This document shows positions 26,167-63,871 of a DNA stretch of 64,000 nt, one piece after another. Origin of the DNA: Stigmatella aurantiaca DW4/3-1 (GTDB lineage: Bacteria > Myxococcota > Myxococcia > Myxococcales > Myxococcaceae). The number at the start of each line of letters is the position of its first letter. The first letter of the stretch is position 1. Below the pieces are notes generated by a model. The model made no database searches and had not been told where the DNA came from. It saw only the letters and a list, made by a program, of their open reading frames with translations. The position numbers and the translations under genes were made by a program. Where the stretch lies: the NCBI RefSeq assembly GCF_000165485.1, contig NC_014623.1:7458893-7522892 (forward strand). Reading direction: 5' to 3'.

Positions 26167-26172
26167 ATAGAG

Positions 26173-35829: not shown

Positions 35830-35860
35830 CCACGGGTTCAAGTCCCGTACTCCTCGCCAA
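35830..35860 (+). repeat. attR: 31-bp direct repeat of the tRNA-Asp 3' end
   Basis: Identical to 26137-26167. It is the displaced original 3' end of tRNA-Asp, including CCA at 35857-35859. Confidence 0.92.
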
Positions 35861-35866
35861 AAAGAA

Positions 35867-35916
35867 GGGCCTGGAATCGAGAGGGAACCTCGAAGATTCC
35901 AGGCCCTTCGCCTTTT
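35867..35916 (+). terminator. Displaced copy of the tRNA-Asp terminator
   Basis: The same 12-bp stem as at 26173-26213 (35867-35878 with 35895-35906) followed by TTCGCCTTTT. It differs from the left copy by one base in the loop and a few outside. It is presumably the ancestral chromosomal terminator, left behind when the element brought its own. Confidence 0.8.
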
Positions 35917-36036
35917 CGGCTTCGTCCAACGAACTGCCTCCGGAAAGGAGGCCCCCCTGCCTTCAGGATGGCCATGAGGCCGATGAAGGCCTGCGGCTTG
36001 ACGGTTCCGCGGTCATGACCCTAAGGAGATCCACGA

Positions 36037-36870
36037 ATGACCCAGCCTCTTATCGACGCGCAACGGTTCCGTGCGCTCCACGCCCCCGGCCAACTGCTGG
36101 TCCTACCCAATGTCTGGGACGCCATGAGCGCCCGGTTGCTTGAGAGCCTTGGCGCTGCGGCACTCGCCACCAGCAGTGCCGCGGTAGCGTGGGCCCACGG
36201 CGCGCCCGACGGAGAGCACTTCGAGTTCGACCGTCTGTTGGCCTCGACCCGCGACATCGTCCGCTCCGTGCGAATCCCGGTGAGCGTCGATTTCGAGCGC
36301 GGCTACAGTACGAGTGCCACGAACGTAGCGGAAGCCGTATGCCGGCTCGCCCAGGTGGGCGTGGTGGGCGTCAACCTCGAGGACGGAACGGAACCTCCCG
36401 AGGTCCTTGCCTCGAAGGTGTCAGCCTGCCGGGAGGCGCTCCGGCGGGAAGGCTTGGACGTGTTTCTGAACGCGCGCACCGACGTGGTGCTGCGTCGCAT
36501 GCTTTCGGGCCCTCAGGCCATCGACGAGGTGGTACGGCGCGCGAAGCGCTACACCGAAGCGGGCTGCGATGGCATCTTCGCCCCTGGCATCTCGGCGGCC
36601 GACGATCTGGCCCGGGTCGTCAACGAAGTCGCAACCCCTCTCAATGTATGGGCGGCACCAACGTTGCCGCCGACTGACCAGCTCCGCACCCTGGGAGTAC
36701 GCCGGGTAAGTGTGGGCCCACGCCTCGCCCTGACTGCGCTCTCAGCGGCAAGGCGCGACGCGGAACAACTGATGGCAGGTCACTGGGCACCTGCGCCAGG
36801 GGACGCCCCGCTCACGTATCCTCAGGTCAATGGTTGGTTTTCCCAGACGCCTGCTCCGTCCAAAGAATAA
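36037..36870 (+). CDS. Isocitrate lyase/PEP phosphomutase superfamily protein
   Basis: TIM-barrel enzyme of 277 residues that probably breaks or rearranges a C-C or C-P bond of a small carboxylic acid. Seen: LLVLPNVWDAMSARLLESLG at the N-terminus, metal-binding VSVDFERGYS (usual D-E/G-Y pattern), VNLEDGTEPPEV, and FLNARTDVVL. The catalytic Cys loop KKCGH of true isocitrate and methylisocitrate lyases is not present, so it belongs to the broad 'phosphonomutase-like' branch with unknown substrate. ATG at 36037 is preceded by TAAGGAG. First chromosomal gene right of the element; no link to the following cluster is evident. Confidence 0.85.
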   Translation: MTQPLIDAQRFRALHAPGQLLVLPNVWDAMSARLLESLGAAALATSSAAVAWAHGAPDGEHFEFDRLLASTRDIVRSVRIPVSVDFERGYSTSATNVAEAVCRLAQVGVVGVNLEDGTEPPEVLASKVSACREALRREGLDVFLNARTDVVLRRMLSGPQAIDEVVRRAKRYTEAGCDGIFAPGISAADDLARVVNEVATPLNVWAAPTLPPTDQLRTLGVRRVSVGPRLALTALSAARRDAEQLMAGHWAPAPGDAPLTYPQVNGWFSQTPAPSKE

Positions 36871-38804: not shown

Positions 38805-38830
38805 TTCCCTGCAACAAGAGGAATCCATTC

Positions 38831-39583
38831 ATGATCATCGACGCACACGCACACTTGTCTCCTACGGCCTATGGCTCCACGGAGAGGTACCTGGAAGTGC
38901 TGAGGCAGAGCGGCATTGAGCAAGCTGTTGTCTGCCCTGGCGGCATGCTCGACGTCAGGAAGATGAACGAATTCGTGTCTGGCCAGAAGAAGCCAGATGC
39001 CATTCCCAAGAATGAGTACGTGAGCCAATCTGTCCAAGCTCACCCCGAGTTGCATGGCGTGGCGTGCGTGGACCCCTGCCACCCGCAGGCACTCTCGCAA
39101 TTGGAAGCGTTGCTGAAGCAAGGCTTCCACGGGCTCATGGTCTCTCCCCTCGTCCACAAGTTCTCGTTCTCCGATGACATGATGGCTGGATTGGCCACCC
39201 TCTGCGGTGAGCAAGGGGCCCCCATCATCTCGCACAATGGGTGGAGACCGGGAGCGAACACCCTTGACTACGTCCAGCTGGCCAAGAAGTTCCCGCGCAC
39301 GAACTTCATCCTGGAGCACATGGGGGCCCACCCCGCCGACGCGGAAGCAACGGAGGCCTGCGCCAGTCTGGACAACCTCTTCTTGGAGACATCGCTCGGA
39401 ACCCACCTTCACGTCGCGGAGACAGTGAAGAAAGCAGGCGCAAGCAAGGTCATCTTTGGCTCCGAGTTCCCCCTCTCCCATCCCGCCTTGGAGATGAAGA
39501 AAGTCTATCTGCTCCCCATCACGGATGGAGAGCGCGAGCAGATCCTGGGAGGAAACATCCGGGGCCTACTCTGTCTGGATTGA
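38831..39583 (+). CDS. Amidohydrolase family 2 (TIM-barrel), candidate benzoxazole cyclase
   Basis: A 250-residue metal-dependent TIM barrel of the ACMS decarboxylase/amidohydro_2 group, shorter than most (about 300). Metal ligands visible: MIIDAHAHLS (HxH), a His in PIISHNGW, ILEHMGAHP, and FGSEFPLSHP. The last motif has Glu where the family usually has the catalytic/metal Asp (GSDxP). It sits between two PaaK-like ligases. In nataxazole synthesis a ligase (NatL2) and an amidohydrolase of this superfamily (NatAM) join two o-aminophenol acids and close the benzoxazole ring. The same role here is inference from gene context. Confidence 0.82.
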   Translation: MIIDAHAHLSPTAYGSTERYLEVLRQSGIEQAVVCPGGMLDVRKMNEFVSGQKKPDAIPKNEYVSQSVQAHPELHGVACVDPCHPQALSQLEALLKQGFHGLMVSPLVHKFSFSDDMMAGLATLCGEQGAPIISHNGWRPGANTLDYVQLAKKFPRTNFILEHMGAHPADAEATEACASLDNLFLETSLGTHLHVAETVKKAGASKVIFGSEFPLSHPALEMKKVYLLPITDGEREQILGGNIRGLLCLD

Positions 39584-39606
39584 AAATGGACACAGGGGGA
39601 CAAACC

Positions 39607-40845
39607 ATGGCACCACCAGACCGCCTCGAAACCATCAATCAAGTACTTCAGCAGGCTCGGAACTCCATCTTCTACAAAGAGCGCCTGCCAGTTGCTCCCC
39701 TCCGGACCTGGGAGGACTTCCAGCGGCTCCCCTTCACGTCCAAGGAGGATCTGCGCAGGTACTCCCCCCACGGACTCGTCTGCGTCCCGGACCGGGAACT
39801 CTTGCAGTACCATGAGTCCTCCGCGACGACCGGTACCCCCGTCTCTGTCTGGTATAGCCGGGATGATCTGGCGGAAATCCGGGAGCGGTTCTCGGCCTGG
39901 GGGGTCGGATTCATGCCCGGAGACCGGGTGCTCGTCCGGTTCCCCTATGCGCTCTCCACCATCGGTCACTTCGTCCATGCCGCAGCCCAGCACAGGCAGG
40001 CTTGTGTCATTCCCGCGGACAGCCGGACGAGCATCACCCCTCTGCCGCGCGTGGTCGAGCTGATGAGGAAATTGCAGGTGACCGTCCTCGCCACCATCTC
40101 TCTCTCAGCCATGATGATTGCCGAAGCCGCCGAGATGGCAGGGCTCGACCCTCGCCGGGACTTTCCTCACCTGCGTGCCATTTGTTGCGCAGGTGAGCCA
40201 TTGACCCTTTACCGGCGCCGCTACCTCGAAGAGCTCTGGGGCGTTCCTGTGTATGACAACTATGGAATGACGGAGACGGGCCCTCAAGCCATGGATTGCC
40301 ATGAGCAACGCCTCCATCCCTGGCAGGATTTGTTCTGGATGGAAATACTGGATGAGCGCCTTGAGAAAGCCGTGGCGCCAGGGGATGTCGGACACCTGGT
40401 CGTTACCTCGCTCTCCCGGAGGGCTTCACCCATGATTCGCTACCTGACAGGAGACCGGGTTCAGCGCCTGGAACAACCCTGCGGGTGTGGCCACAGCTCG
40501 ACGCTGCGGATCCGAGGCAGGGCAGAGGAGTCTCTGTGGGTCCACAACAGGCCATTCGACCTGTGGGAACTCGAGGAGATCGTCCACCAATTGCCCAGCC
40601 GACGCTTCTGGAAGGCAGCGGCTCAACAGAATGGGCTCCACTTCATCGTCGAGCAGGAAGGGGACAGAGACCACGTCCCACCAGCCCTCCTGGCACAACT
40701 GGAACAACAGCACGGCGTCCGCCTGACGGTGGACCTGGTTCCCAAGGGGACTCTTTACGACCGGAAGGAGCTCATCTCCTTCGGCATGTTGGGCAAGCCG
40801 GTCTACCTCTGCTCGCCCCAGTCTTTGCAAGAAAGCCATCCGTAA
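39607..40845 (+). CDS. PaaK-like AMP-dependent ligase (second of two)
   Basis: Adenylating enzyme of 412 residues, same family as the gene at 37473. Motifs: SSATTGTPVSVWYS, YDNYGMTETGP (full YGxTE here), MIRYLTGDRVQRLE, CGCG Cys motif and a C-terminal hinge LRIRGRAEESLW. The hinge and C-terminal domain differ enough from the first ligase to suggest another substrate. ATG at 39607 was chosen because GGGGGA lies six bases upstream; the frame is open to 39580, overlapping the amidohydrolase stop. One ligase could activate the aminohydroxybenzoate and the other its partner acid. Confidence 0.87.
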   Translation: MAPPDRLETINQVLQQARNSIFYKERLPVAPLRTWEDFQRLPFTSKEDLRRYSPHGLVCVPDRELLQYHESSATTGTPVSVWYSRDDLAEIRERFSAWGVGFMPGDRVLVRFPYALSTIGHFVHAAAQHRQACVIPADSRTSITPLPRVVELMRKLQVTVLATISLSAMMIAEAAEMAGLDPRRDFPHLRAICCAGEPLTLYRRRYLEELWGVPVYDNYGMTETGPQAMDCHEQRLHPWQDLFWMEILDERLEKAVAPGDVGHLVVTSLSRRASPMIRYLTGDRVQRLEQPCGCGHSSTLRIRGRAEESLWVHNRPFDLWELEEIVHQLPSRRFWKAAAQQNGLHFIVEQEGDRDHVPPALLAQLEQQHGVRLTVDLVPKGTLYDRKELISFGMLGKPVYLCSPQSLQESHP

Positions 40846-40951
40846 ACGGACGGCGGCACACCTTCAACGAATCTGCCCACGGCACTCAATCCTGGCCCAC
40901 ATCTCGCCGCGGGCGGACCACACCATCGAGACGCCAGGAGGAGAACAAATC

Positions 40952-42193
40952 ATGAACGGAATGAACAGCATGAGCGATGTCACCACCATGGAGAAGCGCG
41001 AGCGCATCCGCCTTGAGCGCATCGACGGCGACCGCAACCGCATCGAAGAGGCCAGCTCCCTCATCGTCTGGTTCGATACGGCTGGCCTGTCCACGCCGAA
41101 TGACTGCGAGGGCATGCTCGAGCGGGTGATCAACCTGGACTATACCGGGGCTGTCCTTTACCCGGACAACCTGACTGCGCTTGCGCCCATCCTCCCAGCG
41201 CGCATGCTCAAAGTCCTCCACGTCCAGCACTCCGCGGACCTTGAACGGCTGAAATCCATGCCTCAAGCCGGCCAGGCATTCATCGTCGCCAGCCCAGACG
41301 CGCAGGTGCTGGAAAAGGCCGCGGCGATGGGACTCAAGACCTGTTACCGGGCATATGTGGATGACGGTGCAAGCCTGCACCAGTCCATCCAGGAGGGCGT
41401 CCGCCATGCGTTCTTGATGATCCGCTTCCGGGATCCCACGAACATTCCCCTGGAGCTGGTCATCGCCTCCCTCCAGGCCACGCACACCGTGCTCATCAAG
41501 GAGATCAACTCTCCAACGGATGTGGACGACGCCATCGTCACCCTGGGCGTGATGGAGGTGGGTGCGGAAGGCGTCATGTTCTCTCCGCGCTCCCATGAAG
41601 CCCTCAGCGAGTTCGTTTCGCGGCTCGGCCGGCTGAACTGCTCCCTGGTGCAGATCGATGTCGCCACCCTGGTGCGCAGTACGCCCATCGGCATGGGCTA
41701 CCGCAGCTGCATCGACACTTCGACGCTCTTCTCTCCCACGGAGGGCATCCTGGTAGGCTCCACGTCTCAGGGCGGGCTGCTGTGCTGCCCGGAGGTCTTC
41801 TTCCTGCCATACATGGAACTGCGCCCCTTCCGCGTGAACGCGGGAGCGGTCCATAGCTACGTCTACAACTTCGGCAACCGCACGGACTACATGAGTGAGC
41901 TGCGGGCGGGCTCTCCGGTGATGCTCGTGGACCGCTCCGGAAATGCACGCAGGGCCAGTGTCGGCCGAATGAAGACGGAAGTCCGCCCCCTGCGCCTCAT
42001 CGAGGCGGAGTTCCAGACCGGTGAGCGCGTCAACGTCATCATGCAGGACGACTGGCATGTCCGGATCTTCTCGGACGAGGCCAAGCCGCTGAACATCACC
42101 GAGCTGCGACCGGGAGACAAGGTGCTTGGCCACGTGGCCAAGCCCGGCCGGCACGTGGGCATCAAGGTCGACGAGCACATCATCGAAACATGA
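40952..42193 (+). CDS. DHQ synthase II-like enzyme, probable 3-amino-4-hydroxybenzoate synthase (GriH type)
   Basis: 413 residues, related to archaeal 3-dehydroquinate synthase II. Conserved parts: EASSLIVWFDTAGL near the N-terminus, LIKEINSPTDVDDAIVTLGV, IGMGYRSCIDTSTLFSPTEG with GILVGSTSQGGLLCCPE, and RPFRVNAGAVHSYVYN. In Streptomyces griseus GriH turns 2-amino-4,5-dihydroxy-6-oxo-7-phosphooxyheptanoate into 3-amino-4-hydroxybenzoate. The same family also makes DHQ in archaea, but a myxobacterium has the normal AroB, and the aldolase next door is the GriI partner, so the benzoate role is favoured. ATG at 40952 is preceded by AGGAGGAG. Confidence 0.87.
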   Translation: MNGMNSMSDVTTMEKRERIRLERIDGDRNRIEEASSLIVWFDTAGLSTPNDCEGMLERVINLDYTGAVLYPDNLTALAPILPARMLKVLHVQHSADLERLKSMPQAGQAFIVASPDAQVLEKAAAMGLKTCYRAYVDDGASLHQSIQEGVRHAFLMIRFRDPTNIPLELVIASLQATHTVLIKEINSPTDVDDAIVTLGVMEVGAEGVMFSPRSHEALSEFVSRLGRLNCSLVQIDVATLVRSTPIGMGYRSCIDTSTLFSPTEGILVGSTSQGGLLCCPEVFFLPYMELRPFRVNAGAVHSYVYNFGNRTDYMSELRAGSPVMLVDRSGNARRASVGRMKTEVRPLRLIEAEFQTGERVNVIMQDDWHVRIFSDEAKPLNITELRPGDKVLGHVAKPGRHVGIKVDEHIIET

Positions 42194-42245
42194 GTCACCT
42201 CCTGATTCAGCCAACTCGCATCCCATCTCAATACAGGGAGTTGCC

Positions 42246-43100
42246 ATGAGTGGAATTGCCAAGAGGATCCGCTGGTCACGCTTCGTGGACCGGCGATATG
42301 GACGGGGAATCATTGTCCCCATCGATCACGGGCTCTCCATCGGCCCCGTGGAGGGGCTGGACAGTCCCACACAGGTGTCCCGATGGATCGGTCACCCGGG
42401 TATCACGGGCATCATTGCCCACAAAGGCATGCTGGAACGGCTCGGAAGCCAAGGCCTGCTGCGCGGCATCGGCATCATGGTTCATCTCAACGGCATGATG
42501 TCTCTGGCTTCGACGCCAGACCGCAAGGAACGGCTGACGTCCGTGGAGGCCGCCCTCCGGCTGGGAGCAGACGCCGTCTCCGTGCAGCTCAACTTCGACG
42601 GGACGAACGATGCCCATAACCTGGTCCAGCTGGGTGCAGTGGTGGACGAGGCTCAGCACTACGGATTGCCCGTCCTGACCATGCTCTATGACAAGGTCCC
42701 CTGCGCGGAGAAAGAAACGGGCGTGAAGCGGCTCAGGCACCTGATGCGAGCCTGCGTGGAACTGGGAACAGATGCCCTCAAGCTGGCCGCGCCAGAGGAA
42801 CTCTCGATGATGCCGATGCTGCTCGAGGGCATCCGGGAGCACACCGCCGTCTTCTTCGCGGGCGGGGCCGTGCGCTCGGAAGAAGAGATTCTCCTGATGG
42901 CGCAGGAGGCGGTGACCTGCGGCGCCACCGGATTGTGCGTGGGACGTAACATTTTCCAGCGGCCCTCCGTCCTCGCCACGCTCACGCGGTTGCAGGGAGC
43001 CGTCCTGGGAGATTCGCAGGCGAATCCAACCACCTGGCCGCTCTCTACGGCCAACGCCCGCGTCCGCTGGTCCTCTCCCGTGGAAGAGGTGGTGAAATGA
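42246..43100 (+). CDS. Class I aldolase, probable aminoheptulosonate-phosphate synthase (GriI type)
   Basis: Schiff-base aldolase of 284 residues from the archaeal FBA/ADH synthase/LsrF family. Seen: [18 protein letters not shown] (DHG), the barrel lysine in [12 protein letters not shown] as likely Schiff base, [15 protein letters not shown] and the C-terminal phosphate-binding [12 protein letters not shown]. In the known pathway GriI joins aspartate semialdehyde with dihydroxyacetone phosphate to feed GriH. ATG at 42246 is preceded by AGGGAG. The aspartokinase gene overlaps its stop by four bases (ATGA). Confidence 0.87.
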
Positions 43101-44413
43101 AGGCAGCGATAACAACGACTCCGATCGGCGGCTCTCCGTTCCAGAGCCGTCGGCGCCCCTTGGTCATCAAGAAGTTCGGCGGCACCTCGGTGGCCAACAT
43201 CGAGCGCATCCGCAGAATCGCGCGGCTGGCGCTGGAAGCGCAGCGGGCGGGCAATGACGTGGTGGTCGTGGTCAGCGCCATGGGCGGAGAAACGGACCGT
43301 CTGCTGAAGCTGGCCTACCAGCTTCTGCCCGTGCCGGACTCTCGCGAAATGGACGTGCTCGCCGCCACAGGGGAGCAGGTCACCGTTGCGCTCACCGCCC
43401 TGGCCATCCAGGCGGAGGGGGGAAAGGCGGCCTCTTTCCTCGGGCACCAGCTTCCGGTGATCACCGACAGCTCATTCACCCGGGCCCGTATCCAGTGCGT
43501 GGAACAAGGTCCCATCCGGGAAGCCCTTGCAGGGGGGCAGATCGCGGTGGTCGCCGGATTCCAAGGGGTGGATCCCAAGAACAACATCACGACCCTCGGC
43601 CGCGGCGGCTCGGACACCACGGCCGTCGCGGTGGCAGCCACTCTCGGGGCCGACATCTGCGAAATCTACACGGATGTCGAAGGGGTCTTCACGGCGGATC
43701 CCCGGGTCTGCCCCTCTGGCCTGAAGTTGAAGTCCATTCCTTACGAAGAGATGCTCGAACTGGCGTCCCTGGGGGCCAAGGTCCTTCAGGTGCGCAGTGT
43801 GGAGATTGCCATGAAATACGACGTTCCCATCCACGTCCGCAGCTCGTTCACAGAGGAGGAGGGAACCCGGATCGTCTCCCGGGACAAGATGCTCGAATCA
43901 CGGAGGTTGATGGGATTGGCCTGTGAACGGAACCAGGTGCGAGTGGAACTCATCGGCGCGGAGTGCCGCCCAGGGCTTGTCGCGGAGCTGACCGATTTCA
44001 TGGCCGAGCTGAACGTGAGCGTGGACATGCTCTGCCATTCCCGTGGGGCACTGGAGAACCCCCGGGCGGACATCTCCTTCACTTTGCCCGAAGGTGAGCT
44101 GCGCCGAGCCCAACCTGAGCTGGAACATTTCATGGGCAGGCTGGGAGCCAGCAGCATGCAGGTATCAAGCGATCTGGCCAAGGTCTCCCTGGTGGGCATT
44201 GGCCTCCGCTCGGATCCGGGGATCGCTGCCCGGCTGTGCCGAAGCTTGACCGAGCAGGGAATTCATGTGTCTGGCCTGTCTGTCAACGAGTTGCGGATCA
44301 GCTGTCTCGTGGAGGGGGACGCGGCGGACCAAGCCGTCTGTATCCTGCATGAGACCTTTGAACTCGCAGGTGAGACGCGCGTTGAGCCACTCGCCTCTTT
44401 GTCTCCAGCCTGA
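43097..44413 (+). CDS. Aspartate kinase (cluster-dedicated copy)
   Basis: Phosphorylates aspartate as first step to aspartate semialdehyde. The 438 residues show [16 protein letters not shown] at the N-terminus, [53 protein letters not shown] and two C-terminal ACT domains (about 275-430). ATG at 43097 overlaps the aldolase stop by four bases, so it is coupled to the aldolase. This indicates a dedicated supply of the semialdehyde for 3-amino-4-hydroxybenzoate. No aspartate semialdehyde dehydrogenase is in the window, so the housekeeping enzyme must serve. The ACT domains suggest some feedback control remains. Confidence 0.94.
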
Positions 44414-44473: not shown

Positions 44474-46093
44474 TCAATGGTGGGACCCGTGCATCGATGA
44501 GCCGGGGTGGACGATCTCCAGGATCTCCATCATCCCCATGTCCTCATGGTCCAAGATGTGGCAGTGGGTGACGAATCTCCCAATGTAGCGCCGGTAGCGG
44601 CTGCGCAACCTCACGGTTTCATTGGCCTTCACGAAAAGCGTATCCCTCCAAAGGACCTTTCCATCGGCCGTTATGGCCTGGAATGGATTGACGTGGACAT
44701 GAAAGATGTGCCCCCCGGCCTGCGCAGCAGAGACGATCCATTCCTCGACCGCCTCCAGCCTGAGCTTGCGTGGAGGGGCATCTGGATTGAACGCTTTGCC
44801 ATTGATAAAGAACTTGATTGGCCTGGACTGAACATCCACCGAGAACCTCGCCTCCTGGGTACCCGTGATCTCCTCATTCAAAATGGGCTTGAAGGGCACG
44901 TGCTGGGCGAGCGCGCTCACCTCTGGCAATGGCATGGAGGAATAACTGCCCTCCACCTCGATACGGGCCAACACCTTTCGCGGCTCCGCCTGCCCCGTGA
45001 TGGAGTCTTCGGCAGCACTTGCTTCGTCGATCAGCAGGTAGACTTCAGGCCTGCTGCCGGCCCGCACCAAGACGTCTTCCCGGTACCCGGGGTGCATCTC
45101 TGTCTCGGTGACCTGATCGAGCCGACCTGAGGTGAGGCCATCGTGCGCAATCTGATAGTGCTCGATCACCGACTGCGGCTCCTTCTCTCGAACGAGCTTG
45201 ATCCGGAGCGATTCCCGGACACCGGCGTGAATGAGCCTCCATCGTTGAACCTCGCCGGGCCTCATTTTGATGACAGGCTCGACCACTCCGTTGATGGTGG
45301 TCCTCCTCCCGGAGGCAGACCAGCGTCCCTCCGCGAATGACGCGTCAAAGTCCTCTACCATGTTGGCCTGTGTCCCTGGAACATAGGGATCATTGACCAT
45401 CGCGTAGGGAATTTGCTGGAAGACGAAGATCTTCTCACGGGCGGCCCGGATAGCGGGAATCTCGTCGACGCCTCCTCGGATGATCAACGCGCCAGCCATA
45501 CCGCTGGCGACCTGAATGGCCACCGCACCGTGCTTGTGGGCGTGGTACCAGAAGGTTCCCGCAGGATGATCCGAGGGGATCTTGATCTCGTACTCGAACT
45601 TCTGCCCCGGTTCGATGGCGAGCATCACATTGTCCGCATTTCCCTCCGGAGAGACGTGCAAGCCATGGGTATGGAGATTGGTGACATTGAACCCATGGGG
45701 AACATTCGGATCAGACATTCCCCGTGGCGGCTCCGGAGGAAGCTGGTTGTCCAGCAGGATACGCAAAGTATCGCCGGGCCGCGCCTCAATGGTCGGCCCA
45801 ACGAGCTGGCCGTTGTAGGAGCGCAACTTCACGGTGTCCACCTCCGTACACCGGCCCTGCTCCAGGGTCCGGCAAATGCGGTTGCTGGCGTACTTGACGG
45901 CCAGCTCTAGGGAGACGTCCTGGTTTGGCACCGAAGCAGCCCCCGCGCCGCTGGCCGCCAGCAATCCCACGCACAAAACAGAAGCGCGCACGCTCCAGAG
46001 CAGCACAGGCTCTCTGGAGTGGGGCTCACGGCCAGAAAAAGAACTCAGCCAGCGGATCCCAGCCCTTTCTGTACGACGTGGCGTCAAGCTCAT
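44474..46093 (-). CDS. Exported multicopper oxidase
   Basis: Oxidises phenols, aminophenols or metal ions while reducing oxygen to water. 539 residues; an N-terminal signal near 30-55 (LLWSVRASVLCVGLLAASGA) points to export. All four copper motifs are intact: HTHGLH, FWYHAHKHGA, HIFHVHVNPFQ, and HCHILDHEDMGMM. The final Met ligand region fits a type 1 copper site. The best known enzyme of this class acting on o-aminophenols is phenoxazinone synthase (PhsA). As the neighbouring genes make an o-aminophenol, coupling of it is a possible role, but CotA/CueO-like general roles are equally possible. Start ATG at 46093; the frame is open 25 codons further. Confidence 0.9.
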   Translation of the reverse strand: MSLTPRRTERAGIRWLSSFSGREPHSREPVLLWSVRASVLCVGLLAASGAGAASVPNQDVSLELAVKYASNRICRTLEQGRCTEVDTVKLRSYNGQLVGPTIEARPGDTLRILLDNQLPPEPPRGMSDPNVPHGFNVTNLHTHGLHVSPEGNADNVMLAIEPGQKFEYEIKIPSDHPAGTFWYHAHKHGAVAIQVASGMAGALIIRGGVDEIPAIRAAREKIFVFQQIPYAMVNDPYVPGTQANMVEDFDASFAEGRWSASGRRTTINGVVEPVIKMRPGEVQRWRLIHAGVRESLRIKLVREKEPQSVIEHYQIAHDGLTSGRLDQVTETEMHPGYREDVLVRAGSRPEVYLLIDEASAAEDSITGQAEPRKVLARIEVEGSYSSMPLPEVSALAQHVPFKPILNEEITGTQEARFSVDVQSRPIKFFINGKAFNPDAPPRKLRLEAVEEWIVSAAQAGGHIFHVHVNPFQAITADGKVLWRDTLFVKANETVRLRSRYRRYIGRFVTHCHILDHEDMGMMEILEIVHPGSSMHGSHH

Positions 46094-46743
46094 TCCCGTC
46101 TTTCCTCCACCTGGCTCACGCCAGTCTGGTGAGGACTGGGAAGCTAGGAGCAAGTAGAGAAAGTGCACGAACGAGATTACTTGAGCATTGGTTACTCAAC
46201 CGCACGAGCGTGTGGGAACAGAAGCTCCATGCCCTGTTGCCTGAATTGCGATGGTAGACTGCCCCATGGGGCGAGGCAGCGCGCTCAGCGTGCGTCCGCG
46301 AAAGCACAGTTTCCGGACGGCTTCCCCCCTTGTCCTTTCGAGCACCATGATGCAATGGAGGCCCATGCACACTGCGCACTGGAACGACTCAACTGCCCCA
46401 CGGACGTTCCCTGGGCTGGGCCGAATGGGGGCCACCTCGAACCAGGGGTCGCATGCTTGGTGGAGCTCGTTGCCGCGGATCCTGCCCAAGCGGGCGCGCT
46501 GTCCGAGGGCTTTTCGCAAGGGTCCGCAGGCTATGCACGCGATACTGTCCTGGCGATGTCTCCCTGGCCATTCAACCTCGAGTCCATCCCCTGACCACGG
46601 AGAACACCTTGCCCGGCGAATTCCCACAGCCCGGCGTCACGTGCTCCTTCATTCGGGAGGCGCCCTGCCGTGGACACACAGCGGAGCGATTCTCGAATCG
46701 CTCTTGACGCGCACACAACCTGCGAGATGAAGAGGAAACTGGG
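46094..46743. other. Divergent intergenic region
   Basis: Lies between the multicopper oxidase (minus) and the acyltransferase (plus). Open frames of about 143 residues exist on both strands (46163-46594 plus; 46196-46627 minus) but they overlap each other, are Cys/Arg-rich and lack good ribosome sites. Probably only promoters. Confidence 0.4.
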
Positions 46744-47904
46744 ATGCCGATGCCCCCCTCAGAACCTCACTTACTTTCCACAATCGACCACTTGTTCCTC
46801 GGCCATGCCTTCTCGATCCTGCTTCACTTCGAGGGACGCCTTGACGAGGCTCGGCTCGAGGCCTCGCTGGCCACGGTGCTGAAGGGTATTCCGCCCCTGG
46901 CAAGCAGCCTCGTCGGCCTCGGGAATGCCCACTATGGCCTTGTGCCGTTGTCACCGGTCCCCGCGTGGATTGACGTCCATGAAGTGCCCCAACTCCCAAG
47001 CGAGCTCTCCGCGCCAAGTGCGCTGGGGGAACTCGTACCGCGGATCACCTCGACCCCAGGACAACCGCTGCTGGCCGTGCGCCTCACGTGCGCACCATCG
47101 GACTGCATCCTCGCGGTGAGCGTGTCCCATGCCATCGCGGACGGATACAGCCTCTTCCTGTTCCTGCGCGCCTGGTCGCGGGCAATGTCTGAGCGCCGTG
47201 TGGAGCCACTTCCGTGGGCGCGTCAGTGGCTTGCCTCGCAGGAGAGGCGTGCCTCGGCCACGGTGACCCCTGAGGAGTTCTGGAACAGAACGGGATTCAC
47301 CTGGAGCCCGCCGGGCAGAGCCCTTGACGTGCCTCGGCCGTCCTCCTTCGGCAAGCGGACCGTGCCACCGGACCCCAGTCTGTTGGCTGGAGCAGAGGGG
47401 CTCTCCAGCAATGATCTCCTCTGCGCTTGGCTCATCCAATCGCATGCCGGTCTCCTCGCGGGTGAAGCCGGACTTGCCGTGACCATTCCTGTGGACTACC
47501 GCCGCTCCCTCCAGGGATTGCCGGGCAATTACTTTGGCAATGCCATCAGGGGGGCACCGCTGTGGCTTGACCGGAGGATCCTCCGCCAGGAAACCCTTCC
47601 CGAACTCGCCATGCGGGTGAAAGAGGCCATTCGTGGGGTGCTCCATGAGCACGGGGCGCGAGATTCGCTCGAATGCCTTGGGCAGGTGCTCCATGAGCAA
47701 GGGCACCCTGTGCTCAGTGAACTCCACACGGTCCATCCCAGCTCAGGCTTCCTCGTGACCAATGTCTCCCGCCTTCCGTTCGGAATGGTGGATCTCGGAA
47801 GGGGTCCCCCGCTGCGCGTCTTGCTGCCAGCCGTCGAGGAGCGGACCGCCGTCATTCAACAAACCGGCGAGGGCTTCGAACTGTCGGTCAACGTTCCGGC
47901 GTGA
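46744..47904 (+). CDS. Condensation-domain/BAHD-like acyltransferase
   Basis: Stand-alone acyltransferase of 386 residues from the CoA/carrier-dependent acyltransferase superfamily. The catalytic HxxxDG is seen as VSHAIADGYSLFLFLRAW near residue 130; the second superfamily segment is LPGNYFGNAIRG near 260. Such enzymes make amide or ester bonds from CoA- or ACP-bound acyl groups. In this cluster it could move the fatty acyl group from the ACP at 51178 to the amine or hydroxyl of 3-amino-4-hydroxybenzoate (inference). ATG at 46744 is preceded by GAGGAAA. Its 3' end overlaps the convergent P450 gene by 17 bases. Confidence 0.78.
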   Translation: MPMPPSEPHLLSTIDHLFLGHAFSILLHFEGRLDEARLEASLATVLKGIPPLASSLVGLGNAHYGLVPLSPVPAWIDVHEVPQLPSELSAPSALGELVPRITSTPGQPLLAVRLTCAPSDCILAVSVSHAIADGYSLFLFLRAWSRAMSERRVEPLPWARQWLASQERRASATVTPEEFWNRTGFTWSPPGRALDVPRPSSFGKRTVPPDPSLLAGAEGLSSNDLLCAWLIQSHAGLLAGEAGLAVTIPVDYRRSLQGLPGNYFGNAIRGAPLWLDRRILRQETLPELAMRVKEAIRGVLHEHGARDSLECLGQVLHEQGHPVLSELHTVHPSSGFLVTNVSRLPFGMVDLGRGPPLRVLLPAVEERTAVIQQTGEGFELSVNVPA

Positions 47905-49123
47905 AACGCACCGGCAGTTCCTTGATGCCGTTCACGAAGTTCGACCGGACCCGGCGCACCTGTCCACACGGCTCCATGTCCGGGAAACGGCGCAGCAGTT
48001 CCTGAAACAGCACGGTGAGCTGAAGCTCCGCGAGACGCCAGCCCAAGCAGTAGTGTTGTCCCTGGCCAAAACCCAGGTGAGGAACCCCGGAGCGGGCCAC
48101 ATCGAAGCGTTCAGGGTGCTCGAACACCTCTTCATCGAAGTTCCCCGAGATGTACCAGAGAACGACCTTATCGCCCTTCGCGATGGGCTGTCCCGAGAGG
48201 ACGGTGTCCTCGGTCGCGGTACGCCGCATATGAAGAAACGGCGACACCCAGCGGATGATCTCCTTCGCCGCCAATGGAATGAGCGTCGGCTCTTCGATGA
48301 GACGGCGGCGCTGCGCGGGGTGCTGGGAGAGCGCCAGGAGCCCACCCGAGATGGAGTTTCGCACCGACTCGTTGCCCGCGATGACGAGCAGGAAAAATGT
48401 GGCGAAGTAACGCGGAATGGACATCACTTCGCCGTCGATCTCGGTGCCTGCGAGCATCGACACGAGGTCATCCCCCGGCCGACGCAGCCGCTCCCTCCAG
48501 AGCTTCAGCGCATAAATGCCCATGTCCTTCGAGCACTGACGGATGTGTCCGGCGGACTTGCGCATGTCGGGGTCATCTTCCCCAATCAGGGCATTCGACC
48601 ACTCGAACAGCCGCAACCTGTCCTCCTGAGGCACCCCCAACAGTTCAGCGATCACCTGGATGGGCAATTCCGCCGCCACGGAGGAGACGAACTCGCATTC
48701 GCCCTGATGGGCAATGCGATCGAGCAGGGAGGTCACCCGGGCCCGAATGCGCGCTTCCAGCCCCCGGATGCGCTCAGGCGTGAAGGCAGGTGCCACCATG
48801 CCGCGGTGGGTGTTGTGCTCCGGGGGGTCCATGCTGAGCATGGATGCCTCCAAGCCCTGGGTGATCTCCGCATCCACTTCGTCATGGATGCGGTGTCCGC
48901 CCTGGTGCCGGGCGGAGGAGAACAACCGGGGGTTCTTCGACACGGCGACGATGTCCCGGTAACGCAGGACCGACCAGAAGCCACGCCCATCCGTCCCTGG
49001 GTTCCACCAGATCGGATGCTCCTGGCGAAGCTGCGCGAAAAGATGGCGCGCCGCGTCGCGCTCGAAGATCCCGGGATCCGCCAAATCGACCCGGGACGGC
49101 GCTGCAGGCTCTTCCCGTGTCAC
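47888..49123 (-). CDS. Cytochrome P450
   Basis: Haem monooxygenase of 411 residues, typical soluble bacterial length. The haem-binding loop is LGFGQGQHYCLGWRLAE, the ExxR pair is in KEIIRWVSP, and the I-helix reads VIAGNESVRNSISGG with Glu-Ser for the common Glu-Thr. ATG or GTG start near 49123. Redox partners are not in the window. It is convergent with the acyltransferase and divergent from the desaturase gene, sharing a 108-base region with the latter, so it is likely a tailoring enzyme of the lipid or aromatic part. Confidence 0.93.
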   Translation of the reverse strand: MTREEPAAPSRVDLADPGIFERDAARHLFAQLRQEHPIWWNPGTDGRGFWSVLRYRDIVAVSKNPRLFSSARHQGGHRIHDEVDAEITQGLEASMLSMDPPEHNTHRGMVAPAFTPERIRGLEARIRARVTSLLDRIAHQGECEFVSSVAAELPIQVIAELLGVPQEDRLRLFEWSNALIGEDDPDMRKSAGHIRQCSKDMGIYALKLWRERLRRPGDDLVSMLAGTEIDGEVMSIPRYFATFFLLVIAGNESVRNSISGGLLALSQHPAQRRRLIEEPTLIPLAAKEIIRWVSPFLHMRRTATEDTVLSGQPIAKGDKVVLWYISGNFDEEVFEHPERFDVARSGVPHLGFGQGQHYCLGWRLAELQLTVLFQELLRRFPDMEPCGQVRRVRSNFVNGIKELPVRFTPER

Positions 49124-49231
49124 GCCAAACCTCCAGATGGGGTTGCATTGGAGTCTAACTCATTCAGATAATCGGACGAATCGAGGTATCCCCCTATCGC
49201 GGACGGCTCACACATCGTAATCGCCCAGCGG

Positions 49232-50155
49232 TTGACCATCGACGGGCGTGCGGTGCGGACGCGCCAGCGGCTCCATGCCCTGGTCTCCCTGTTCCTGCCA
49301 CTCGCCGGAACCTTGCTCACCCTCGCCCGTCTCTTCACCCAGGGGCTCTTGGCCGCTGACCTCGGGCTGCTCGTGTTGATGTACACCGTGACGATGACAG
49401 GTGTGGATGTTGGCTACCACCGCCTCTTCTCACACCGCTCGTTCAAGGCCCGTTCGAGCCTCCGGGCACTGCTCGCCGTTTGCGGGAGCATGGCGGCCCA
49501 GGGCCCGCCCATCTACTGGGCGAGCAATCACCGCCTTCACCATGCCAGGAGCGACACCGAGGACGATCTGCACTCACCCCACGTGAATGGTGAAGGTCAG
49601 CGCCGTGGGCGGCTCGCCGGGTTGTGGCATTCGCATGCAGGGTGGATGTTCGGCCATACCCCCGCCAATCCGATCCGGCTCGCAAAGGACTTGCTGCGGG
49701 ACACGACCCTCACGCGGATCAATCAGCTCTACTACCTCTGGGTGATGCTCGGGCTGCTGCTGCCCACAGCCCTGGGCGGGCTCCTGGCGGGAACGTGGCA
49801 GGGCGCCTGGTCAGGATTTCTCTGGGGTGGCCTGGCGAGGATGTTCTTCGTGCAGCATGCCACCTTCTCGGGGAACTCTCTCTGCCACTTCTTTGGCAGC
49901 CGCCCCCATCGCACGGGCGACTGGAGCACGAACAACCTCTGGCTCGTCATTCCAACCTTTGGTGGCGCCATGCACAACAACCACCATGCCTTTCCCAGCT
50001 CGGCCTTCGTCGGATCCAGGTGGTGGCACTTTGACCTCGGAGGCGGGTTGATCCGCCTCTTCGCCAAGCTCGGACTTGCCTCCGGCATCAAGGTCCCATC
50101 TCCCGAGGCAAGGCTTTTGCTGGCAACGGATTCGCGGGACACCGCCGGTCCATAG
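49232..50155 (+). CDS. Membrane fatty acid desaturase (first of two)
   Basis: Di-iron desaturase of 307 residues with several membrane helices. The three His boxes of the acyl desaturase/stearoyl type are present: HRLFSHRSF, HRLHHARSD and HNNHHAFPS. It introduces a double bond into an acyl chain on CoA or ACP. No ATG is available upstream; the best starts are TTG at 49232 or GTG at 49253. It is followed 22 bases later by a paralogous desaturase, then ACP and a fatty acyl-AMP ligase, so the likely substrate is an ACP-bound chain, as for JamB. Confidence 0.9.
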   Translation: MTIDGRAVRTRQRLHALVSLFLPLAGTLLTLARLFTQGLLAADLGLLVLMYTVTMTGVDVGYHRLFSHRSFKARSSLRALLAVCGSMAAQGPPIYWASNHRLHHARSDTEDDLHSPHVNGEGQRRGRLAGLWHSHAGWMFGHTPANPIRLAKDLLRDTTLTRINQLYYLWVMLGLLLPTALGGLLAGTWQGAWSGFLWGGLARMFFVQHATFSGNSLCHFFGSRPHRTGDWSTNNLWLVIPTFGGAMHNNHHAFPSSAFVGSRWWHFDLGGGLIRLFAKLGLASGIKVPSPEARLLLATDSRDTAGP

Positions 50156-50177
50156 ACCGGCCCCACAGGAGAAATGG

Positions 50178-51197
50178 ATGCGGCTGGAGCACGCCAAGAA
50201 GCTGCACGCCGTGGGGGTGATCGTCCTCTCCCTCTTCGGGTCGATAGCGGCCGTCCTGCTTGCGCTCCGCTGGGGGGCCGGTCTGCTGGAAGCCGGACTG
50301 TTCTGCCTCATGTACTCGCTCAGCATGGTGGGAATCACCGTCGGTTACCACCGCTGCTTCGCGCATGGCGCCTTCGAAGCCCCCCCGTGGCTCCGCGCGG
50401 CCCTGGCCATCTGCGGCTCGATGGCCTGCCAAGGACCCGTCATCTATTGGGTGGCCAACCACCGCGCCCACCATCGCTTCACGGATGCGCCCGGCGACCC
50501 CCACTCGCCGTACTTCTTTGGCGCCACCCCCCTCGGGCGATTGCGCGGCCTGTGGCATTCCCACCTCGGCTGGACTTACAGCCATCCCATCCCCGACACC
50601 GTCACCTACGCCAAGGACCTGATGCGTTCCCCCTCCACCCGGCGCCTGAGCCGCCTGTACTTCGTCTGGGTTGGACTCGGTCTGGTGCTTCCCGCGCTGT
50701 TGGGAGGGCTGCTCACCTTCAGTCTGAGCGGGGCAGTCCGGGGACTGCTCTGGGGTGGCTTCGTGCGCGTCTTCGTCGCCTACCAGCTGAGCCTCGCCAT
50801 CGGTTCGATCGCGCACAGCCAAGGGCAGCGGCCTTTCCACATCCGTGGGCTCAGCGCGAACAACGCGCTGCTGGCGCTACCGACCTTTGGAGAGGGCTGG
50901 CATCAAAACCACCATGCCTTCCCCTATTCGGGAACTTTTGGTCTCACATGGTGGCAACTGGATCTGGGGGCCGTCGTACTCCGGGGCCTCTCCACGCTCG
51001 GGTGGGTCTGGAACATCAAGGTTCCTCCCGCGAGCGCCATCGCGGCTCGACGAGCCACTCCCGACGAGGCGTGGGGAATGGAAAGCACTCCGGCCGAGCT
51101 TGCGGCTCAGGCGGCCGCGGGAGTGCGGCACGCAGGTCCCGCAGTGAGCAATCCCCCAGAAGAGGAGAACCGACGGCATGGCGAAAGAGCAGGGTGA
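50178..51197 (+). CDS. Membrane fatty acid desaturase (second of two)
   Basis: 339 residues, paralogous to the preceding gene. His boxes: HRCFAHGAF, HRAHHRFTD and HQNHHAFPY. The C-terminal 50 residues are Ala-rich and probably disordered. ATG at 50178 has AGGAG eight bases upstream; the frame is open 34 codons further back into the previous gene. The ACP gene overlaps its 3' end by 20 bases. A second desaturase acting on the same ACP-bound chain could add another double bond or turn a double into a triple bond; which one cannot be read from the His boxes. Confidence 0.9.
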   Translation: MRLEHAKKLHAVGVIVLSLFGSIAAVLLALRWGAGLLEAGLFCLMYSLSMVGITVGYHRCFAHGAFEAPPWLRAALAICGSMACQGPVIYWVANHRAHHRFTDAPGDPHSPYFFGATPLGRLRGLWHSHLGWTYSHPIPDTVTYAKDLMRSPSTRRLSRLYFVWVGLGLVLPALLGGLLTFSLSGAVRGLLWGGFVRVFVAYQLSLAIGSIAHSQGQRPFHIRGLSANNALLALPTFGEGWHQNHHAFPYSGTFGLTWWQLDLGAVVLRGLSTLGWVWNIKVPPASAIAARRATPDEAWGMESTPAELAAQAAAGVRHAGPAVSNPPEEENRRHGERAG

Positions 51198-51489
51198 AGC
51201 AGGTGCGGCAACGTCCACGGCGGGAGCGCCTGATACCGAAGCCGTGAGACAGTGGCTGGTGGCATACATCGCCGACTTGCTGGAGTTCGAGCGCTCCGAG
51301 GTCAACACCCGCATGGCGTTCGGACGCTACGGGCTCGACTCGACTGCGGCCGTCGCGCTGACGGGGGATCTCGGCAACTGGTTGGGGTGTGACATCGATC
51401 CCCGCGCCCTGTACGAGCACAAGACGATTGATGCCTTGGCGGACTTCGTCACCGCGAATCACGCGAAGCTGCGCAAGCCTGGGACGTAA
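51178..51489 (+). CDS. Acyl carrier protein
   Basis: A 103-residue carrier protein with the phosphopantetheine-attachment serine in FGRYGLDSTAAVAL (GLDS near residue 60) and a conserved four-helix layout. The first 20 residues are an Ala/Gly-rich extension. ATG at 51178 lies inside the preceding desaturase gene; the ligase gene starts one base after its stop. It probably receives a fatty acid from that ligase and holds it for the desaturases and acyltransferase. Confidence 0.93.
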   Translation: MAKEQGEAGAATSTAGAPDTEAVRQWLVAYIADLLEFERSEVNTRMAFGRYGLDSTAAVALTGDLGNWLGCDIDPRALYEHKTIDALADFVTANHAKLRKPGT

Positions 51490-51490
51490 A

Positions 51491-53245
51491 ATGAGCGATA
51501 CGGCGGCGGAGCGGCAAGGCACACAGCGAGCGCTCCCAGGGAAGAGCAGAACAATTCTCGACGTTCTCGGCTACCGGGCAGCAGCCCACGGCAACCGGAC
51601 CGCCTTCATCTTCCTCGAAGAAGGTGAGGTAGAGGAAGGAAAGCTGAGCTTCCAGGAACTGCACGCAAATCATCTCGTCGTAGCCCATGCACTCCGCAAG
51701 GAAGGACTTGCAGGCAAGCGTGTCCTGCTCTTCTACCTGCCAGGCCTCGACTTCGTGATCGCCTTCTTCGGTTGCCTCGCTGCGGGCGTGGTTCCCATCG
51801 CGGTCCCCCCACCCCTGCCCACCGAGCGAACATCGCGGATTCAAGCGATCGTCGACGATGCCCACGCCGCCGCGGTGTTGACCGCAGGCGACCTGGTGCC
51901 TGTGCTCCAGTCCTGGCTCGCACAAAGCGAGCGGTTGGGTGGGCTGCCGCTCATCGCCACCGATGCTGTCGATGCCTTGGAGAGTCCCGCCGGAGCTCAC
52001 CGCCCAGCGCCAGATGATCTCGCCTTTCTCCAGTACACGTCAGGCTCGACGACGCTCCCTCGGGGCGTCATGGTCGGTCATGACAATCTGCTTGCCAACC
52101 TGGAGTGTATCCAGCGCCCGCTCCTCATCGGAGCGGACAGCGTGTCGGTGACATGGCTCCCCTGCTTCCATGACATGGGCCTCATCAATGGCGTGCTCGA
52201 GCCTGTGTATGCGGGCTGCCTTAGCGTGATGATGTCCCCCTTGGCCTTCATTCGTCGGCCGCGCCGCTGGCTTGAGGCTATCTCCCGTTACCAAGCAACG
52301 CATTCGGGAGGGCCGAATTTCGCTTATGATCTCTGCGTCCGGAAAATTCCGCCACGAGATCGCCAAGGGCTGGAGCTTGGAAGCTGGCGCCAAGCCTATC
52401 TCAGCGCCGAGCCCATCCGCCGGGACACGCTGGAGCGATTCCACGACGCATTCACCGCCTCCGGCTTCCGCCGCACAGCCTTCTACCCCTGCTACGGTCT
52501 CGCCGAGGCGACGCTGGCTGTGACGGGAGGCAGCCTCGATGCCGCCCCGCTCTGCTGCAGTGTCGACAATGTGGCCCTCGAGCAAGGCAGGGTCATCGAA
52601 ACATCCGAGGGCGCTTCTGGCTCAACGGCCATTGTCGGGTGTGGAGTCGCTGGCCTCGACACCGAGGTGGTGATCGTCGATCCGGAGACCCGCCAGCTTG
52701 CCGCTGCCGGTCAGATCGGTGAAGCCTGGGTCAGAGGGCCCGGCGTCGCGAGGGGCTATCTCGGCCGCCCCGAGGAGACTCAGGAGAGCTTTCAAGCCCA
52801 TCTCGACACAGGCGCAGGCCCCTTCCTGCGCACCGGAGACCTTGCGTTCAAGAAAGGTGAGGAGCTGTTCATCGTTGGGCGATTGAAAGACGTCATCATC
52901 ATCCGTGGCCGCAACTACCACCCCCACGACATCGAATGGTCCGTCGGCCAAAGCCACCCTGCCCTGCGCGCTGGGTGCGCGGCAGCCTTCGTCGTCGACG
53001 GTGACGGCAGCGAGAAGCTCATCGTCGTTCAAGAACTTCAACGGGAACTCTCCGGCGCCGCTCCCCTGGAAGAGGTCATCGGCAACGTCCGTCAGGCGGT
53101 CTCGGAGCAGCATGGACTGCGGCTACACCGTGCGGTGTTGGTGAAGACGGGAGGCATTCCACGAACCTCCAGCGGGAAGATCCAACGAAGGCTGTGCCGG
53201 TCTCTCTTCGAAGCGGGCTCCCTCGATGAGGTTGCGCAAGGATAG
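51491..53245 (+). CDS. Fatty acyl-AMP ligase (FAAL)
   Basis: Adenylates a free fatty acid and loads it on the ACP. 584 residues. FAAL-typical motifs: FLQYTSGSTTLPRGVMV, SGGPNFAYDLCVRKI, AYLSAEPIRRDTL-like segment, FYPCYGLAEATLAVTGG, FLRTGDLAF, IIRGRNYHPHDIEWSVGQSH and the C-terminal lysine in PRTSSGKIQRR. These favour FAAL over CoA ligase (FACL). ATG at 51491 directly follows the ACP stop. Same order of parts as in JamA-JamB-JamC systems (ligase, desaturase/acetylenase, carrier). Confidence 0.94.
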   Translation: MSDTAAERQGTQRALPGKSRTILDVLGYRAAAHGNRTAFIFLEEGEVEEGKLSFQELHANHLVVAHALRKEGLAGKRVLLFYLPGLDFVIAFFGCLAAGVVPIAVPPPLPTERTSRIQAIVDDAHAAAVLTAGDLVPVLQSWLAQSERLGGLPLIATDAVDALESPAGAHRPAPDDLAFLQYTSGSTTLPRGVMVGHDNLLANLECIQRPLLIGADSVSVTWLPCFHDMGLINGVLEPVYAGCLSVMMSPLAFIRRPRRWLEAISRYQATHSGGPNFAYDLCVRKIPPRDRQGLELGSWRQAYLSAEPIRRDTLERFHDAFTASGFRRTAFYPCYGLAEATLAVTGGSLDAAPLCCSVDNVALEQGRVIETSEGASGSTAIVGCGVAGLDTEVVIVDPETRQLAAAGQIGEAWVRGPGVARGYLGRPEETQESFQAHLDTGAGPFLRTGDLAFKKGEELFIVGRLKDVIIIRGRNYHPHDIEWSVGQSHPALRAGCAAAFVVDGDGSEKLIVVQELQRELSGAAPLEEVIGNVRQAVSEQHGLRLHRAVLVKTGGIPRTSSGKIQRRLCRSLFEAGSLDEVAQG

Positions 53246-53262
53246 AGGGTGTCCTTCCCCCC

Positions 53263-63038: not shown

Positions 63039-63871
63039 GCCTCAACTGGCGCTCCAAATGATCGACCGGGCCATGGAGGACGGTGTGCCTGCTGGCATTG
63101 TTTTGGCAGACAGTGCCTACGGCAGTTCCAGTCAATTCCGTTCGCACTTGCGTTCGCTGGGCTTGCACTACGCAGTCGCGGTGTCTTTTCAGACCACTGT
63201 CTGCCTATTGGATGACAAGGGACGTGCCCAAGAGGAGGCGCAGAGCATCTCGGATTTGGCCTTCAGCATCCAGGAGGCAGGTGGCTTTCGACGTTGCACG
63301 TGGCGCAAGGGGATCCGAAAGAACCTATCGGCCCGCTTTGCCCTGCGCGGGGTCAATGCCGCAGGCATGTCCCAGAGCGAGCAGGAACTGCTCTGGCTGC
63401 TCATTGAGTGGCGCGATGGGGAGCCCGAGCCTGCCAACTATTTCCTCATTTCCCTTCCGGGGCACAGAACCAAAAAGCAGCTCGTTCGTCTGGTCATGCC
63501 GCGCTGGAGAACCGAGCGCGTCTATGAAGACCTCAAAGGCGAACTGGGCCTGGACCATTATGAGGGCCGCCGCTTCCCAGGGTGGCATCACCACATTTCT
63601 GTCGCCCTGTGCTGCTACGCGTTCATTGTGGCCGAACGCGTGCGGCATTTTCCCCCCGCGGCCAGAGGGGTGGATGAAGCTCTCTCGCAGCCGCTCCAGG
63701 CCTGAGCGCCACTTCCACGACAGCTTTATTACCGCACGGCTTGCCATGGCTCAGGTGATTGCCTTCTGGCTGCCTCGCTGCCTGCCCCACCTGTCACCAC
63801 TCCCTCTCCGAGCGCTCTGGACGCAATCCATTCGGCCTCCCCTTTCACACTCTGGGCCCCTGACTCAGTAG
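63039..63871 (+). pseudogene. IS701/IS4-like transposase remnant, 5'-truncated and frameshifted
   Basis: Coding starts directly at the IS66 right end (TPQLALQMIDRAMEDGVP in frame from 63037), so the N-terminal half is missing. The DDE core is visible: GIVLADSAYGSSSQFR and RVYEDLKGELGLDHYEGRRF with PGWHHH. The frame ends at 63705, but the transposase-like C-terminus ERHFHDSFITARLAMAQVIA continues in the +1 frame to 63871, which indicates a frameshift near 63700. Inactive remnant. Confidence 0.78.

Follow-up and report, generated by a model that had tools for sequence, protein, structure and literature searches.

In the complete 10.26 Mb genome of Stigmatella aurantiaca DW4/3-1 two tandem genes for membrane desaturases are followed by the genes of an acyl carrier protein (ACP) and a fatty acyl-AMP ligase (FAAL). 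This locus raises the question whether it belongs with the terminal-alkyne systems JamABC (jamaicamide) and TtuABC, and what the doubling of the desaturase means. Here, we show for the window (the whole stretch of 64,000 nucleotides that was analysed, positions 7,458,893 to 7,522,892 of contig NC_014623.1, forward strand) that the conserved unit consists of six genes, including those of a BAHD-type acyltransferase and a cytochrome P450. The upstream desaturase (Des1) and the downstream desaturase (Des2) differ in one residue of the diiron site, and the same pair of residues recurs in adjacent FAAL-linked desaturases of other bacteria. This pattern supports a division of labour between the paired enzymes.

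Gene content and limits of the cassette

The following features make up the cassette (window coordinates):

46744..47904, plus strand: BAHD-type acyltransferase (PF02458, 54.1 bits against a cut-off of 22.7; motifs HAIADG and VDLGRG)
47888..49123, minus strand: cytochrome P450 (Pfam p450; heme Cys motif FGQGQHYCLG; PDB matches)
49253..50155, plus strand: Des1, membrane desaturase (PF00487, 59.3 bits against a cut-off of 29.7)
50178..51197, plus strand: Des2, membrane desaturase (PF00487, 83.6 bits against a cut-off of 29.7)
51178..51489, plus strand: ACP (PF00550, 49.9 bits against 20.8; Ser in GLDS)
51491..53245, plus strand: FAAL (PF00501, 213 bits against 29.9; NCBIfam and PDB matches to FAALs; tree)
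46319..53261, no strand: extent of the six-gene unit (blastn of the window against L067, junction sequences, scar alignment)

The P450 and ACYLTRANSFERASE are both located upstream of Des1, within the six-gene unit. The core of the cassette is as it had been described from the letters of the DNA, and Pfam, coordinates and motifs agree on it. Both tandem desaturases possess complete His boxes (HRLFSH, HRLHH and HNNHH in Des1; HRCFAH, HRAHH and HQNHH in Des2) and are separated by 22 nucleotides, the ACP gene overlaps Des2 by 20 nucleotides and the FAAL gene follows after a gap of one base. The limits of 49,232-53,245 given by the original prediction had to be revised. The start of Des1 is probably the GTG at 49,253 and not the TTG at 49,232, because this start agrees with the reading frames of the orthologs in L054 and L056. 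Moreover, the left edge was too tight since the conserved unit begins with the overlooked BAHD gene (46,744) and takes in the likewise overlooked P450. Promoter and terminator scans at the cassette did not rise above shuffled sequences (0 against 0.8 and 5 against 4.9, respectively), and a repeat search there revealed short imperfect repeats only, including a 20-nucleotide 80% inverted pair near both ends (46,392 and 53,081).

Conservation and loss of the six-gene unit

Among 145 genomes of the order Des2 is present at 75-100% identity in four, namely this genome itself (G000) and G046, G082 and G121 (75-78% in these three). A search of 195 genomes of the phylum placed the BAHD gene (identity of at least 56%) in the same four genomes as the desaturase pair; a fifth genome (G044) has a BAHD match of 28% identity, and the other cassette genes do not occur in the 20 kb inspected there. 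The gene order of G046 is identical to that of Stigmatella, in G082 the BAHD and P450 genes are placed after the FAAL gene, and in G121 the genes are split over two short contigs in a manner compatible with the Stigmatella order. All six genes are preserved intact in these three genomes, with protein identities of 56-87%, so the cassette is far beyond chance. In the stretches compared, close matches common to the loci of this genome, G046 and G082 are confined to these six genes, besides four weak matches to distant genes of the window. The His boxes of the desaturases are conserved, and catalytic motifs are retained in all four orthologs in the case of the ACP (Ser of GLDS), the P450 (heme Cys motif) and the BAHD-type enzyme (HxxxDG), whose second motif (VDLGRG here) is found in two of the four. 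The conserved unit is thus a set of six genes that includes the BAHD-type acyltransferase and the P450.

In the congener G077 the cassette is absent between the multicopper oxidase gene and the gene at 53,263, where 77 nucleotides are found versus 6,943 here (blastn against L067). Of these 77 nucleotides 52 match the 3' portion of the FAAL gene with an alignment score of 47, compared with maxima of 31 for 100 shuffles of the 77 nucleotides and 26 for six other stretches of the window, and 25 for the reverse complement. A further 18 nucleotides align downstream and keep the order of the gene, with a score of 21 that by itself is not significant. This FAAL remnant means that G077 has lost the cassette and that its presence at this site predates the species S. 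aurantiaca. It also rules out an insertion of the cassette in this strain. In G079 (L068) no trace of the cassette was found at the locus, and the gene at 53,263 is absent there as well.

Residue pattern at the diiron site of paired desaturases

In stearoyl-CoA delta-9 desaturase (SCD1) Asn265 holds a metal through water. It is included in the list of active-site residues given in PMC8533217. The model of Des2 (predicted local distance difference test, pLDDT, 87.9) adopts the fold of SCD1 (Z 30.3, 274 residues, root-mean-square deviation 2.4), and its Gly209 aligns to Asn265 in both SCD1 sequences. Glycine is found at this position in all four orthologs of Des2 and asparagine in Des1.

The distribution of these residues was surveyed in 326 loci, which gave 194 distinct arrays after removal of identical copies. 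The loci stem from searches and are not a random draw. One scan of genome contigs contributed at least 80 loci, and a draw from Pseudomonadota comprised two further genomes with matches among 398. Short loci show 1.5 kb per side, and desaturases less than 400 nucleotides apart were taken as adjacent. Adjacent desaturases occur in 32 of the 88 distinct FAAL-linked arrays, hence they are not rare in this sample, and 28 of these 32 contain a Gly copy (18 polyyne arrays, three of this cassette, six cyanobacterial arrays, i.e., L213, L214, L215, L296, L297 and L298, and L289). FAAL-linked desaturases without an adjacent copy (n = 56) carry Asn in 53 cases, Arg in one (L221), Ser in one (L306) and Gly in one (L055), and this sole Gly case is the contig end of the very cassette described here. 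Single desaturases with no FAAL in view (n = 103) comprise 100 with Asn, two with Gly (L132 and L133) and one with Ala. Apart from L055, L132 and L133 all Gly copies (28 of 31) are located directly downstream of an Asn copy.

At least four changes are required to explain Gly on the 99-row tree described below, and a fifth origin outside of FAAL loci is likely because L133, which has Gly, was left out of this tree. A single ancestry of all Gly-type copies was rejected (approximately unbiased, AU, test, p 0.006). A second mark, Gly instead of Glu before the third His box, is shared by Des1 and the first desaturases of the polyyne arrays and occurs elsewhere too (seven changes). The Stigmatella pair (Asn then Gly, with His in the third box) matches that of cyanobacterial L289 and resembles the polyyne pair. 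In the cyanobacterial loci L214, L215, L297 and L298 a tandem of four desaturases (Asn, Asn, Gly, Asn) lies between FAAL and ACP.

The division of labour supported by the Asn/Gly pattern is possibly that of ene formation followed by yne formation. The original prediction had suggested that the doubled desaturase could separate the double-bond from the triple-bond step, and of this idea the two-step split gains support from the pattern; the triple bond itself stays a possibility. A possible though not probable alternative is that the same acyl-ACP pathway operates with desaturases yielding two double bonds, so that the product is a diene without any alkyne. Acetylenases and desaturases are indistinguishable from sequence alone, pairs of two Asn-type copies do exist (L057, L073, L080, L295) and an omega-hydroxylase-like P450 suits a hydroxylated unsaturated acid. 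The diene is disfavoured by the presence of the Asn/Gly pair in 18 of 18 polyyne arrays, a family described as making triple bonds in the accounts of PMC8406139 and PMC9098870, and by the restriction of Gly, among FAAL-linked desaturases without an adjacent copy, to the contig end mentioned above.

Phylogeny of the desaturases

Desaturase trees were reconstructed from 91 sequences and, with the three signature columns removed, from 99 sequences; the latter tree omitted eight third polyyne desaturases, three odd rows (including L133) and seven near-copies. The delta-9 reference consists of the ordinary desaturases of this and related genomes, putative delta-9 enzymes by our own choice, and JamB is represented by stand-ins, namely the cyanobacterial loci L212, L291 and L303, each of which combines a single desaturase with a ketosynthase. 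In the 99-row tree the putative delta-9 desaturases form one clade on a long branch (1.68, 100/100). Des1 (three rows) and Des2 (four rows) constitute separate clades (100/100 each) away from them, inside the radiation that holds the FAAL/ACP-linked desaturases. When mouse SCD1 was included in a quick tree, it took a place close to the putative delta-9 rows and apart from Des1 and Des2; its branch has a length of 4.8 and carries a long-branch warning. Pairwise scores to SCD1 do not discriminate between these enzymes (101.3 bits for the ordinary desaturase of the genome, 93.7 for Des2 and 90.1 for Des1). A grouping of both desaturases with delta-9 enzymes, which would have spoken against an alkyne-type cassette, was not observed in these trees, as neither of them groups with the putative delta-9 rows or with SCD1.

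The polyyne first and second desaturases appear as two clades (100/99 and 100/100) with Des1 and Des2 outside both. This bears on the idea that the cassette is a reduced polyyne cluster devoid of the third desaturase, the thioesterase and the rubredoxin. Des1 and Des2 have the Asn/Gly residue pair of the polyyne enzymes, and the AU test does not firmly reject one clade for Des1 and the first polyyne desaturases (p 0.060). On the other side, it weakly rejects one for Des2 and the second polyyne desaturases (p 0.031), the FAAL falls outside the polyyne FAAL clade (100/99), the gene order is different and the third desaturase, the thioesterase and the rubredoxin were not found in window 30,001-60,000. 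We regard a reduced polyyne cluster as highly improbable.

FAAL, P450 and BAHD-type acyltransferase

The best NCBIfam and PDB matches of the ligase include the FAALs PRK05850, FadD32 and FadD23. A tree of 45 of the 54 rows of a quick tree, which itself left out near-copies, places it beside cyanobacterial FAALs of desaturase-ACP-polyketide synthase (PKS) loci with single and multiple desaturases (83/98, fork not starred; SH-like approximate likelihood ratio test, SH-aLRT, of 98 in the quick tree).

The best solved relative of the P450 is ‘CYP125MRCA’ (E 6e-129), a reconstructed ancestor judging by its name, and further solved relatives are CYP124 (‘methyl-branched lipid omega-hydroxylase’), CYP125 (‘steroid C26-monooxygenase’) and CYP153 alkane hydroxylases. 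These relatives suggest that the P450 oxidises at the chain end; another conceivable substrate is the acceptor. Within the BAHD family the acyltransferase takes a remote position (best PDB E 1.3e-4), and an alcohol or amine is the likely recipient of the finished acyl chain.

These data have to be weighed for a JamABC-type terminal-alkyne cassette in which the second desaturase forms the triple bond at the chain end. Its three activities are identical with those found here, the FAAL adjoins those of cyanobacterial desaturase-ACP-PKS loci and JamB alone converts 5-hexenoyl-ACP to the alkyne, as reported in PMC4356899, where it is presented as an acetylenase acting on 5-hexenoyl-JamC. It is at odds with this model that no ketosynthase match that might accept the starter was detected in window 30,001-60,000 and that the closest solved relatives of the P450 oxidise chain ends, where a terminal alkyne would not survive; the suggested chain-end oxidation by an omega-hydroxylase-like P450 therefore disfavours a free terminal alkyne. 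Such a cassette seems unlikely to us.

Proposed pathway

On balance we favour the reading that the six genes encode a self-contained pathway in which a dedicated carrier protein holds the fatty acid during its modification. The genes present, their intact catalytic motifs and their families, their joint conservation and the residue pattern have been described above; substrate, order of steps, type of bond and acceptor we infer as follows. The FAAL would turn a free fatty acid into the acyl-AMP and load it on the ACP, and Des1 would introduce a double bond in the ACP-bound chain. Des2, with a diiron site devoid of an equivalent of Asn265, may act second and on the unsaturated chain, leading to an enyne, an alkyne or a further conjugated bond. 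The P450 would hydroxylate the chain, with the end or its vicinity as the most likely site, and the BAHD-like enzyme would acylate an alcohol or amine with the ACP (or CoA) as the acyl donor, thus replacing the thioesterase or polyketide synthase of related cassettes. More tentatively, the upstream Asn-type copy can be seen as the ene-former and the downstream Gly copy as a dedicated acetylenase or poly-unsaturating enzyme, and the product of the cassette may represent a new class, i.e., hydroxylated esters or amides of alkynyl or enynyl fatty acids that the BAHD-type enzyme releases.

Several points weigh against this interpretation. Glycine is not necessary, since the four Asn-type pairs named above are FAAL-linked, and it is not exclusive, as L132 and L133 are Bradyrhizobium desaturases without FAAL. 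None of the three adjacent arrays with no FAAL in view (L058, L292, L294) has a Gly copy. Counted by lineage, Gly arose just four times in FAAL-linked arrays, with the 18 polyyne arrays among the 28 representing one case; a sign test is left with three independent pairs on starred branches (median p 0.25) and cannot reach significance with so few origins. Orphan desaturases without FAAL share the radiation with Des1 and Des2, so placement alone is no proof of ACP dependence. Rubredoxin and thioesterase were searched near the cassette with S. goshikiensis queries (tblastn, E 1e-4) in window 30,001-60,000 without success. BAHD enzymes normally use acyl-CoA, and the P450 or the BAHD-type enzyme might act on a different molecule.

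Regarding two of the arrays just mentioned, L292 and L294 are cyanobacterial with three and two adjacent desaturases, respectively, and their contigs or stretches end nearby.

Significance

The alkene-to-alkyne step of bacterial membrane desaturases and the need for several of them in polyyne clusters are the questions addressed by the residue pattern. Each polyyne desaturase has been deleted, and in the account given by PMC8406139 they ‘synergize’; a polyyne cluster was co-expressed in Escherichia coli according to PMC9098870. The recurrent replacement of Asn by Gly in the diiron site of downstream desaturases offers a single-residue hypothesis that is testable in the polyyne cluster expressed in E. 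coli. The six-gene cassette, for its part, is compact enough for expression as a whole, which would reveal the product of the BAHD-type release. Our literature search found no paper that brings together myxobacteria, alkynes, desaturases and biosynthetic gene clusters, none linking polyyne desaturases with histidine and asparagine residues and none combining BAHD, fatty acyl-AMP ligase, desaturase and cytochrome P450.

Neighbouring cluster and other features of the window

Window positions 37,473-44,413 contain two AMP ligases, an amidohydrolase, a 3-dehydroquinate synthase II-like gene and a DeoC aldolase. These five follow the gene order given for pfxABCDE of Pyxidicoccus fallax in PMC12118335, and an aspartate kinase accompanies them. 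This region is a closoxazole-type (benzoxazole) cluster distinct from the six-gene cassette. One might consider the cassette as a set of tailoring genes of this cluster that acylates its aminohydroxybenzoate product. Both are direct neighbours here, the FAAL remnant in G077 places the origin of their adjacency before that of this species and a BAHD enzyme could acylate an amine or phenol. Nevertheless, of the 11 among 145 genomes of the order that possess the closoxazole-type amidohydrolase only two have the cassette (G000, and G121 on another contig), and G046 and G082 carry the cassette without this amidohydrolase. A tailoring role is thus very doubtful.

A multicopper oxidase gene (44,474-46,168) lies beside the closoxazole-type cluster in all four relatives inspected (L067-L070). 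Upstream of the closoxazole genes a gene of the phosphoenolpyruvate (PEP) mutase/isocitrate lyase family is found (36,037-36,870); its copy in G077 has 83% identity and no match occurs in the inspected stretches of the other three relatives. In L063 (G073) a series of desaturase, ACP, cyclopropane synthase, desaturase and FAAL genes (7,159-17,328) is located about 2.4 kb from a second closoxazole-type pair of amidohydrolase and ligase.

Further to the left a repeat of about 93 nucleotides extends from the end of tRNA-Asp (26,090-26,166) and is found again at 35,830-35,921, with a phage-type integrase gene (26,223-27,515) between both copies. Positions 26,136-35,921 look like an integrated element of about 9.7 kb. 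A transposase fragment of the DDE family is located at the right end of the window (63,058-63,705).

Comparison with known systems

With SCD1 the Stigmatella desaturases share the fold (Z 30) and the three His boxes. They differ from it by their position in the tree, where SCD1 is found elsewhere on a very long branch, by the Gly that replaces Asn265 in Des2 and by their linkage to FAAL and ACP.

Loci with desaturase, ACP, methyltransferase, P450, hydrolase and FAAL genes in Pseudonocardia, Thalassospira, Nocardia and Burkholderia likewise unite FAAL, ACP, desaturase and P450. Their only desaturase is of the Asn type and their methyltransferase resembles cyclopropane synthases, no BAHD gene was found in them, and the P450 of the Thalassospira locus has 28% identity with that of Stigmatella.

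The bacterial polyyne cassette (caryoynencin, protegencin, cepacin, collimonin, massilin), for which a set of seven genes is defined in PMC8406139, has adjacent Asn- and then Gly-type desaturases next to an ACP, together with a FAAL, just as found here. The Stigmatella cassette differs by the lack of a detected third desaturase, thioesterase and rubredoxin (window 30,001-60,000), by a FAAL gene in the last instead of the first position, by His in place of the Gln in the third box of the polyyne enzymes and by desaturases and FAAL that fall outside the polyyne clades in the trees. The polyyne clades named in PMC8406139 are those of Beta- and Gammaproteobacteria and Actinobacteria. A polyyne-like array (FAAL, two desaturases, ACP, third desaturase and hydrolase, plus a second FAAL and ACP) is present at 5,545-13,610 of L060 from G120, a genome of the same family, and no rubredoxin was found beside it. 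Cyanobacterial clusters with desaturases are mentioned in PMC4558948.

JamABC was compared by its activities and by the stand-in loci. Both systems comprise a FAAL, a membrane desaturase and a dedicated ACP, which the Stigmatella FAAL directly adjoins, and the Stigmatella desaturases belong to the FAAL/ACP-linked radiation and not to the delta-9 type. In JamABC one desaturase is followed by PKS and nonribosomal peptide synthetase genes, whereas here two desaturases occur without a ketosynthase match in window 30,001-60,000, and a P450 and a BAHD acyltransferase are added. Of the resemblance originally proposed the three common activities are supported. Membership is not, in view of the two desaturases and the lack of a detected polyketide acceptor, and neither is an alkyne as product, with a terminal one the least supported. 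The cassette works like JamABC and the polyyne pairs and yet, by the features tested, is assigned to neither of them.

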